Below are positions 25,778 to 46,634 of a DNA stretch of 46,634 bases, piece by piece. The stretch is taken from NCBI GenBank assembly GCA_005877775.1, contig VBOJ01000013.1:1-46634 (forward strand). Direction: 5' to 3'. The stretch is from Nitrospirota bacterium (GTDB lineage: Bacteria > Nitrospirota > Nitrospiria > Nitrospirales > Nitrospiraceae). Numbering within the stretch: the stretch's first letter is position 1; every line of letters starts with the position of its first letter. The notes beneath the pieces are model-generated. The model ran no database searches, was not told the origin of the DNA, and was given only the letters and a program-made list of their open reading frames with translations. Position numbers and translations under genes: made by a program.

Positions 25778-25900
25778 GTTAGGCGTGAGGCGTCAGCTTG
25801 CGTCATTGCGTCGAGCGTCTTTTGCGTCTGTCGCGACTGACGCTACGGACGCCGCACGCGTGGACGCTTTCTCACGCCTCACCCCTTACGCCTTACGACC
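25778..25900 (+). repeat. intergenic repeat element, GTGAGGCG arms with a GCGTC/GACGC core (copy 1)
   Basis: 89 bp (25784-25872) identical to the reverse complement of 26169-26257. Confidence 0.92.
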
Positions 25901-26142: not shown

Positions 26143-26274
26143 TCGTGAGGCGTCAGGCGTGAGGCGTAAGAAAGCGTCCACGCGTGCGGCGTCCGTAGCG
26201 TCAGTCGCGACAGACGCAAAAGACGCTCGACGCAATGACGCAAGCTGACGCCTCACGTTTCACGCCTTACGGCA
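26143..26274 (-). repeat. intergenic repeat element (copy 2), inverted relative to copy 1
   Basis: 26169-26257 is the exact reverse complement of 25784-25872. Confidence 0.92.
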
Positions 26275-32327: not shown

Positions 32328-32424
32328 CGTAAGGCGTGAGGCGTTAGGCGTGAGGCGTGAACTCTCTGTCTACGGCGGGGCTCTTTCCGCTACCCCTTAC
32401 CCCTTACCCCTTACCCCTCACGAG
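32328..32424. repeat. intergenic hairpin element, GTAAGGCGTGAGG family
   Basis: 'CGTAAGGCGTGAGGCGTTAGGCGTGAGGCGTGA' against inverted 'TACCCCTTACCCCTTACCCCTTACCCCTCACGAG'. Confidence 0.85.
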
Positions 32425-34161: not shown

Positions 34162-36876
34162 CTACGCGATGCCCGCCGGTCTGAACCGGCGCAGGCGCAG
34201 CGCGTTCCCCACGACGCTCACGGACGAGAGGCCCATGGCGGCAGCGGCCCAAATAGGATTGAGCATGCCAAGCGCTGCGGCTGGGATCAGGAGGATATTG
34301 TACATGAAGGCGGCGAACAGATTCTGTTTGATGTTCCTGGTGATCGCGCGTGATAGGGCAATGGCGGTGACCACGCCCCGCAGGTCCCCGCTCATGAGCG
34401 TGATGTTCGCGGCCTCCATTGCGACGTCGGTGCCGGTTCCGATCGCGATTCCGACATCGGCCTGAGCCAGCGCCGGCGCATCGTTGATCCCGTCCCCCAC
34501 CATTGCCACGACCTTACCTTGTTCCTGAAGCCGTTTGATTTCGCGGGCCTTTTGCTCGGGCAATACCTCCGCCAGCACGCGATCAATCTTGACTTGCTCG
34601 GCGATGGCCTTCGCGGTTCGTGGATTGTCGCCGGTCAACATGACCACTTCCACCCCAAGCTGATGCAAGGCGTTCACCGCCTCGCGGGCGTGGTCCTTGA
34701 GCTGATCGGCGACCGCGAGCAGGCCAATGATCTGAGGGGGCTGAGCTGTGCCGGGCTTGGCGAGATTCTGGACAGCCAAGTACATCGGGGTCAGGCCGTC
34801 GGACGCGAGTTGCTCGGCGGCCTTGTTCGCCTCTGCGCTGACCAGGATGCCCTGCGCTTCCATCAGTCGGAGATTGCCCAGGTACAGGCAGAGGATCTGT
34901 GATCCCTCGCCGACCGTGGCGCGCATGCCGTGGCCTGGGATGGCGGTGAAGTCCCTGGCATCTTCGAACATCAGGCCTCGTTGATGGGCGTGGCACAGGA
35001 TAGCCTCTGCAACTGGATGCTCTGAACCCTGTTCGGCCGATGCCGCGATCGCTACCAGGCGGTCCTGGGTCCAGCCATCGGCGAGTGGCACCACTGCGCG
35101 AACGGCCGGTTCGCCACGCGTCAGCGTCCCGGTCTTATCTAGCACGACCGTCGTGAGTTGGTGCGCTCGTTCCAGGGCATTGCCGCCTCGGATCAACACA
35201 CCGTGCTCGGCGCCCTTCCCGATGCCAACCATAATGGAGGTCGGCGTCGCAAGCCCGAGCGCGCAGGGGCAGGCGATGATCAACACCGCCACGAAATTGA
35301 CGAGCGCATGGGTGAGCGCCGGAGGCGGTCCGAACATGAGCCAAAGCGCGAAGGTGACCGCGGCGATTCCGATCACGGCCGGCACGAAATAGGCCGCGAT
35401 CCGATCCGCGAGCCTGGCGAGCGGCGGTTTCGCCGCCTGCGCTTCTTCCACAAGGCGGATGATCCGAGCCAAGGCCATCTCGCGCCCAACCTTGGTCGCC
35501 TCGACCCTCAGGCTTCCGGTCCGATTGAGGGTGGCACCGACCACCAGATCGCCTGGCTGCTTGTCCACCGGAAGGCTTTCGCCTGTGAGCATGGATTCAT
35601 CCACCGTTGAGGTCCCGTGGCGCACGATCCCGTCCACCGGCACTTTTTCACCAGGCCGCACGATGACGACATCACCGATGCGGACCTCCTGAATCGGGAT
35701 GTCCTGCTCGCGGCCATCGCGGATAATCCGCGCGTCTTTCGGCTGCAGGCCGATCAGTGTCCTGATCGCCTCGGAGGCGCGCCCTTTCGCCCGCATCTCC
35801 ATCAGGCGTCCGAACAGAATCAGTGTGATGATCGCGGCCGAGGTGTCGAAGTACACGGCAGGAGCCAAGCCGCCGGCCGTAAAGAGCTGAGGAGCCAGAG
35901 TGGCGAGCAGGCTGTACAGGTACGCTGCCGAAGTTCCGACTGCGATGAGGGTGTTCATGTCGGAGGAGCCATGACGGGCGACCGCGTAGGCTCCCTTGTA
36001 GAACTGCCAGCCGGCCCAGAATTGAACGGGCGTGGTCAGGAGAAGCTGTAACCAGAAAGACGCCGATCTGGTCAGGGACACCCCAAGGTGCTCCGCCATG
36101 CCCAGGACCATCACGGGTAGGGTCAAGGCGGCGGCGACTCCAAACCGTAGCCGGAGGTCTCGATCGGCAGCCTTCGCACGTTCCTCCTTCGCTGCCGGCG
36201 TCTCTGTCTCGCCTGCAGTCAGCTCGGGGGAAGCGACCGGTGTGTAACCGAGGCTTTGGATCGTCTGGTGAATCGCAGGCAGGCCTGTGACTCCTGGCAG
36301 GTACTCGACCGTGGCCTGCTCGGAAGCCAAATTGACCGAGGCACTGACGACACCCTGCATCGTCCCTAATCCCTGCTCAATCCTTGAAACGCAGGAGGCG
36401 CAGGACATGCCTTCGATGGGAATCGTCACCGTGACGGGCGAGTATTGAGTGCTGAGTGCCGAGGACTGCATCTCTTGCGTTGATCGCGGGGCACCCATTG
36501 CTCCAGGATGCAATGGGTCCCGGTCCGTCGCGACGGCTCGACCCCTCGATTCGCACTCGGGGTCGACCCTGAGCCTGTCGAAGGGTCGACTGAGCTCGCC
36601 GAAGTCAGACGCCGGACGCGAAAGACGCTCCGCGCCTGCAGACCTCAGTCCTCGTTGCTCAGCCCTTATCGCTGGTCCGAGCGTGATGATCTGCGGATCT
36701 GGCGCCCGGTGCCCTCCCATTCCCTTGGGCCCGTCACGAAGAATTCGCTCGGGGTCAGCCTCAAAGGTCCGCTTGCAGCCCGGCGCGCAGAAATAGTAAG
36801 TGGTCCCCTGATAGGCCGCGGTAGCCGGGGCCTTCCGTTCATCCACGGTCATGCCGCAGACTGGATCAATCGCCAT
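34162..36876 (-). CDS. P1B-type copper-translocating ATPase with N-terminal YHS and HMA domains
   Basis: '[39 protein letters not shown]', '[14 protein letters not shown]', '[10 protein letters not shown]', '[11 protein letters not shown]', '[26 protein letters not shown]'. Confidence 0.94.
36440..36663. repeat. palindrome mosaic inside the CopA-type ORF (YHS-HMA linker)
   Basis: Outer arms GAGGACTG (36461-36468)/CAGTCCTC (36646-36653); ACCCATTG/CAATGGGT; CGACCCC/GGGGTCG; TCGACCC/GGGTCGA. Confidence 0.85.
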
Positions 36877-36892
36877 CGCGTACACACAGAAA

Positions 36893-37070
36893 CCGTGAGG
36901 GGTAAGGGGGTTGACAGACCGTTAGGCGTGAGGGAGCGTCCACGCGTGCGGCGTCCGTAGCGTCAGTCGCAACAGACGCAAAAGACCCTCGACGCAATGA
37001 CGCAAGCTGTTGCCTAACGCCTGACACTTCACACCTAACTTCCCCTCGCGCCCAACGCCTCACGAAAGCT
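36893..37070 (-). repeat. intergenic repeat element (copy 3), GCGTC/GACGC core
   Basis: 36935-37009 matches copy 2 with two visible substitutions; GTTAGGCGTGAGG-type flanks. Confidence 0.9.
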
Positions 37071-38504: not shown

Positions 38505-38607
38505 CGTTAGGCGTGAAGCGTTAGGCGTGAGGCGATCAGCGCAAAGCCTAACGCCGTCCGGGAAGTCAAGTCTTGTCGCCTCACACCTCACCCCTTACGC
38601 CTCACGT
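38505..38607. repeat. intergenic hairpin element, GTTAGGCGTGAGG family
   Basis: 'CGTTAGGCGTGAAGCGTTAGGCGTGAGGCG' against inverted 'CGCCTCACACCTCACCCCTTACGCCTCACG'. Confidence 0.85.
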
Positions 38608-41956: not shown

Positions 41957-46504
<4,548 letters not shown>

Positions 46505-46634
46505 AGACGCGTGAAGCGCGAGGGGCCAGGCGCGTCGATCGCGTCTCTTGCGTCGTTGCGTGCAGCGTCTCTTGCGCAAAAGACGCTACGGCTCGACTGA
46601 GCTCGCCGAAGTCAGACGCTATTGACGCTCTACG
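46505..46634. repeat. repeat element (copy 4, truncated by the window edge), GCGTC/GACGC words plus a 27-bp module shared with the copA linker
   Basis: Repeated GCGTC...GACGC; TCGACTGAGCTCGCCGAAGTCAGACGC at 46593-46619 and 36586-36612. Confidence 0.85.

Follow-up and report, generated by a model that had tools for sequence, protein, structure and literature searches.

The copA gene in the stretch analyzed here (the window: 46,634 nucleotides of a Nitrospirota bacterium, contig VBOJ01000013.1) probably contains repeat DNA of intergenic type that has become part of the reading frame of an intact CopA, within the unconstrained linker that joins its YHS and HMA domains, a reading to which we assign a probability of roughly 0.8 from sequence comparisons. 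The gene (34162–36885, minus strand) encodes a YHS-linker-HMA CopA P-type ATPase of 907 amino acids, with a GTG start at its edge and a MAIDPVCGM start three codons in. The CGM, GMSCASC, TGES, CPCALG, DKTGTLT, and GDGIND motifs are present, and all catalytic motifs are in place. As the original prediction had claimed, the frame runs uninterrupted across a series of palindromes, and the linker peptide matches the one quoted there. A programmed frameshift occurs in E. coli copA; no suitable in-frame slippery heptamer was seen in the copA of the window. The body of the protein was compared between the window's own genome (G000; a 3.06-Mb metagenome-assembled genome [MAG] of 309 contigs, 92% complete) and a genome of the same genus (G001; CR_Sed_300A_bin.33, an 85% complete MAG) and is under purifying selection (dN 0.045, dS 0.39 over 345 codons), with a dN/dS of about 0.12 that also spans time before the insertion. 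An AlphaFold model of the window CopA was too poor for use (mean pLDDT 53); the linker (54–147) had no predicted secondary structure and a pLDDT below 30 over most of its length, consistent with disorder.

Several repeat families, mostly intergenic ones, are combined in the insert, a mosaic of three materials: GAGTGCT-type heptamer arms at both ends, a family-A hairpin with its own flanks, and overlapping CTCGCCGAAGTC / TTCGACAGGCTCAG repeats. An older hairpin, built of heptamers, has one of its arms at 36440–36469 (GAGTATT GAGTGCT GAGTGCC GAGGACT; CAGTCCTCGGCACTCAGCACTCAATACTC in copA sense); homologous arms occur in the copA genes of G001 and a further genome (G014), and a copy of this arm lies elsewhere in G000 (contig C144). 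The opposite arm (36641–36663; GCTGAGCAACGAGGACTGAGGTC in copA sense) is identical over 22 bp in G001 copA. A 171-nt module occupies the hairpin tip between them (36470–36640). Its first component is a family-A composite of the type GCGTCTCTTGCG..GGGGC-hairpin-CCCGGTCTGTCGCGAC (36473–36534), 90–96% identical to copies on contigs C92, C74, and C51; the hairpin itself, ACCCATTGC-TCCAGGAT-GCAATGGGT (36493–36518), is the predicted palindrome with a 10-nt spacer. Overlapping TCGACCC/GGGTCGA palindromes (36537–36590) surround a widespread core, CCTGAGCCTGTCGAAGG (36568–36584), and both the CGACCCC/GGGGTCG and the TCGACCC/GGGTCGA arms named earlier were found within them, just as the outer arms GAGGACTG and CAGTCCTC were located at 36461–36468 and 36646–36653. 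Repeat B, GGGTCGACTGAGCTCGCCGAAGTCAGACGC, completes the set (36583–36612). The description of some 220 bp packed with stem-loops was correct as to the palindromes; about 170 bp of palindromic DNA lie at 36470–36640. As single-stranded DNA the palindrome-bearing region folds with z = −5.1 relative to dinucleotide shuffles and thus exceeds chance.

The 27-bp recurrence claimed for the window is exact (36586–36612 and 46593–46619) and is part of a 30-bp, 97% match. This second copy of repeat B (46590–46619) is one of 10 or more additional genomic copies, 11 copies being found in the 515 kb described below; it is embedded in TTGCGTC-type heptamers downstream of a large ORF (41957–46501). Other segments of dispersed repeats were seen in the window at 25778–25896, 26145–26270, 32331–32422, 36920–37032, 38512–38600, and 46531–46629; these six are mostly intergenic, and several carry TTGCGTC or CTCACGC heptamers. 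An Rfam search of the window matched no family.

The full 224 bp is single-copy in G000, and pieces of it match 29 other places (E ≤ 0.001), with 36473–36534, 36583–36612, and 36543–36598 recurring separately. The idea of a single module was therefore right about repetitive pieces but not about their unity, as the 224 bp comprises several repeats and occurs as a whole once in its own genome. Family A (ACCCRTTGC-loop-GCAAYGGGT) has 50 perfect-armed copies in G000, where a reversed control pattern has none; six relatives tested contain 16 to 103 copies, again with none for the reversed control. Its arms exchange A-T for G-C on both sides with pairing kept. Assembly bias can affect counts of family A, as repeats are often missing from MAGs. 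Among 44 copies in G000, 42 are intergenic, one lies at an ORF start, and the only one deep inside a gene is that in copA. The intergenic copies are mostly downstream of genes (13 between two forward genes, 19 between two reverse genes, 6 between convergent genes, and 1 between divergent genes). Our own codon model called 505 genes (86% coding) in a 515-kb sample of stretches, over half of it picked for carrying repeat copies, and repeat densities are to be read against that sample. Within it, 36 of 56 repeat segments are wholly intergenic, and only the two in copA lie deep within a long gene. Several family-A hairpins are paired 54–56 bp apart (C110:4555/4611, C190:13116/13171, C239:5325/5381, C280:14500/14554, and C309:6434/6490); in such pairs one member has A-T and the other G-C at the variable stem position, in the manner of BIMEs, near a TTTTTCAGCATCCTGCT-type repeat. 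At least 120 stretches of a viral collection (IMG/VR contigs L248–L367) contain exact matches to the core CCCTTCGACAGGCTCAGGG. This core is a very widespread repeat, and the TTCGACAGGCTCAG-type repeats in the copA insert are likewise very widespread.

The same-genus ortholog reveals the site without the module. Between GAGGTC and GCAGTCCT, copA has 171 nt in G000 vs. 13 nt in G001. The main difference of 158 nt is no multiple of three on its own; a further difference of about one heptamer (7 nt) and 6 bp restores the frame, for a net gain of 171 bp, or 57 codons. Any order given to these steps is an inference. The heptamer arms are kept as a hairpin in the copA genes of both G001 (fold z = −1.35, weak) and G014 (z = −5.5, strong), which means that the G000 module occupies the tip of a hairpin older than itself.

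An order-wide search found this form of CopA in 23 of 236 genomes. Linkers range from 32 to 96 amino acids; most have a VTLxPxR-like motif in common and differ in the variable part, and the window's linker is not shared by the other orthologs. The CopA encoded on a contig filed under Klebsiella pneumoniae (L111, a MAG) shares only 49% identity with the query, and the contig is possibly misnamed. Repeats dispersed in the respective genome were found in 11 of the 23 linkers (G000, G001, G014, G018, G005, G024, G012, G035, G049, G053, and G046), the match in G001 being weak (E = 8e-4); the linkers of G016 and G037, as clean controls, match only themselves. The repeats are of different kinds: CTCAG, ACGTCTC, CGCCTCA, and CATCAGC heptamers, GGGGACAGGCAC/GGAGCCAGTCCCC and CCCCTCACCC..CCCTCTCCC palindromes, and family A. 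The heptamer arrays in the G012, G024, and G035 linkers are oriented such that all frames are stop-free; the other strand would hold TGA. On the CopA tree, the carrier state needs at least six changes, forced by well-supported branches, in a count that also took the truncated G009 as a carrier; the differing kinds of repeat imply more than six. Family A lies in the G046 linker in the orientation opposite to that in the window, so the family reached this linker twice, independently. The CopA linker is a recurrent landing zone for differing repeats.

Alignments of orthologous DNA revealed empty, base-palindrome, and filled forms of such sites in other genes. In murF, the site is empty in G037 and G049, carries the base palindrome GTGGGTGCGGGAGGGGCG-TCTGCG-GGGCCCCATCCCGC in G043 and G051, and in G046 has a 36-nt family-A hairpin in place of the tip TCTGCG. 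CoaBC, TruB, and a CCG-domain protein follow the same pattern of states in different genomes, and in CoaBC of G037 another hairpin occupies the tip. The copA linker of G049 and G053 holds CCCTCTCCC-TCC-AGGGGAGAGGG, and in G046 family A sits in that tip. The step from base to tip-filled form would be a filling of the tip, on a comparison that covers MAGs, several from one study, and is compatible with either filling or loss. Base palindromes with no family-A hairpin were also seen at orthologous MurF, CoaBC, and TruB sites on L457, L463, L464, L470, and L477. No target-site duplication was visible in the alignments of the empty and filled MurF, CoaBC, and TruB sites.

Family A is more often genic in some relatives. 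In G046, 15 of 47 copies lie in genes, including those for PutA, MurF, CoaBC, ProS, a MidA-like methyltransferase, and CopA; the corresponding figure in G016 is 2 of 25. G016 also has an in-frame family-A hairpin (L416:6025) at residue 491 of a 1100-aa ORF (APVAFPEQRVPG) resembling the large subunit of carbamoyl-phosphate synthase. A composite of 72 or 75 bp, GTGGGTGCGGGAGGGGCG(CNT)CGGGT-hairpin-GATGGGCCCCCTCCCGC, is built on the family-A hairpin, and a covariance model placed it at 37 positions in 9 of 236 genomes, G001 among them and G000 not. It is genic at 25 of 33 loci examined (e.g., L371, L377, L393, and L403 in G046; L428 and L454 in G051; L426 and L443 in G053; L431 in G001). Counting orthologous sites once by our own grouping, 16 of 20 independent sites share one frame and the peptide VGAGGARVPVAPSNATGDGPPP (binomial p = 1.4e-8 if the five frames that we read as open in the consensus, out of six, are taken as equally likely). 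In the CoaBC, ProS, and MurF proteins of relatives, the predicted in-frame peptide is VPVAPSNATGDGPPP, and solved structures do not have the segment (28 vs. 3 residues in ProS, 32 vs. 5 in CoaBC, and 28 vs. 5 in MurF). Pfam identified further hosts as Mfd, Lhr, TruB, a GlcD-like oxidase, isocitrate/isopropylmalate dehydrogenase, TonB, and an S41 protease; in Lhr of G051 the element is a tandem double copy.

We suggest that the window insert arose stepwise. An older heptamer-built hairpin, common to G001 and G014, was already present in the copA linker, and its tip would then have been occupied by the REP-like family-A hairpin and by the CTCGCCGAAGTC/TTCGACAGGCTCAG repeat. Hairpin tips may be the preferred landing place, and the insert is probably tolerated with no selected function, only in-frame, stop-free, protein-compatible products surviving. 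The DNA might be moved by cleavage and repair, or by template switching, at extruded single-stranded hairpin tips, with or without a transposase in trans, a mechanism to which we give even odds. The original prediction of a mobile or repetitive element rather than ordinary linker stands in its second half, since pieces recur, the G001 ortholog is free of them, and other orthologs differ; mobility is supported only indirectly, by dispersed near-identical copies and by empty and filled sites.

True transposition, with family A as a REP- or MITE-like element moved in trans by a hairpin-loop-targeting enzyme of HuH (Y1/RAYT-like) type, is the strongest competitor and is in our view somewhat unlikely. 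Near-identical subtypes in high copy number, intergenic positions mostly downstream of genes, the 54–56-bp pairs, and the presence of Y1_Tnp genes in 7 of the 12 genomes searched would all fit; however, Y1_Tnp presence is unrelated to the number of family-A copies, no terminal tag is common to all of them, and PF01797 (Y1 transposase/RAYT) matched nothing in G000, with its 50 copies, or in G001, both incomplete MAGs. RAYT/Y1 was accordingly rejected as the obvious mover, being absent from the own-genome search and uncorrelated in relatives. A selected role, be it an RNA hairpin slowing translation between domains, a terminator or frameshift signal within the gene, or a beneficial lengthening of the linker, could explain the strong fold (z = −5.1) and the repeat DNA in this linker of half the orthologs, but the other half are repeat-free, sequence, length (32–96 aa), and repeat type vary freely, and the same kind of element occurs in unrelated proteins; we consider such a role improbable. 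Fusion of a YHS gene with a copA gene, the old intergenic spacer and its repeats becoming translated, would account for the intergenic type of the repeats and for the CopA without YHS in family f4. It is very improbable and was rejected on the linker comparison, because ordinary Ala/Pro linkers free of repeats, with the common VTLxPxR motif, occur in many orthologs and the repeats differ between sister species and so are later than the fusion. That the palindromes merely reflect chance in a GC-rich linker or an assembly artefact is scarcely credible, for although the comparison covers a single metagenome assembly of this species, the pieces recur at 90–100% identity in many other contigs and similar events are seen in other studies' assemblies.

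Rickettsia provides the best-known cases of in-frame palindromic insertion. The predicted analogy to Rickettsia palindromic elements (RPEs) holds, by behavior, for palindromic repeats in frame in protein genes (copA here, and the composite at the 25 genic loci), and the sister-genome composite resembles RPEs further in its housekeeping hosts, its constant peptide in one preferred frame, and its lengths in multiples of three. It does not extend to a single RPE-type unit in copA: that insert is a multi-family mosaic, so its likeness to RPEs is one of behavior only, and the setting is free-living Nitrospirota with nested units of 42 and 72/75 bp. Heptanucleotide STRRs are known in cyanobacteria, and the window arms resemble such period-7 arrays, which are over-represented between genes, but they are imperfect, inverted as hairpin arms, and part of a coding linker; other copA orthologs have arrays of ACGTCTC, CGCCTCA, and CATCAGC. 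Arrays of GGGAATC in Xanthomonas (PMC4692102) and TAACTGA in Beggiatoaceae (PMC4679880) are mainly intergenic. TruB is a host of RPEs (PMC3733652) as it is of the composite, and intragenic REPs and RPEs have been described before (PMC3733652, PMC10969869), including REPs at about one site of recB in two Xanthomonas species. Like REPs (GTAG/CGTC), family A is a short palindrome of 20–40 nt with a high copy number; most copies lie outside genes, downstream of them and between unidirectional or convergent neighbors, and some are genic. It differs in apparently having no GTAG/CGTC tag common to all copies, in being nested in tips, and in the lack of a RAYT gene among the own-genome matches; CGTCATC flanks some copies (e.g., L217, L219, and L416) and is absent from the copA copy and most subtypes. 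MITEs, Caulobacter CIR, and ERIC are small nonautonomous repeats able to make in-frame fusions (reviewed in PMC10969869), a likeness limited here by the lack of recognized terminal inverted repeats of known IS and of direct target repeats.

No description of these repeats was found in the open-access papers searched, including by a search with the repeat letters. As far as we can tell, the tip-nested arrangement, the in-frame steps in housekeeping genes of free-living Nitrospirota, and the repeatedly colonized CopA linker are new. The copA insert may be one product of a class of protein-coding palindromic elements in Nitrospirota, in which hairpins enter the tips of earlier ones in multiples of three, including in essential enzymes; we put this forward tentatively, at a little less than even odds. 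If true, free-living bacteria would be gaining new protein segments continually from this source, by a mobility directed at hairpin tips that is so far undescribed. The comparable empty, base, and tip-filled states in murF, coaBC, and truB make two questions testable: the way such elements move, with hairpin tips as their targets, and whether new protein sequence regularly arises by repeat insertion. The CopA linker, where many arrangements of repeats are found at a single site, offers a natural experiment.
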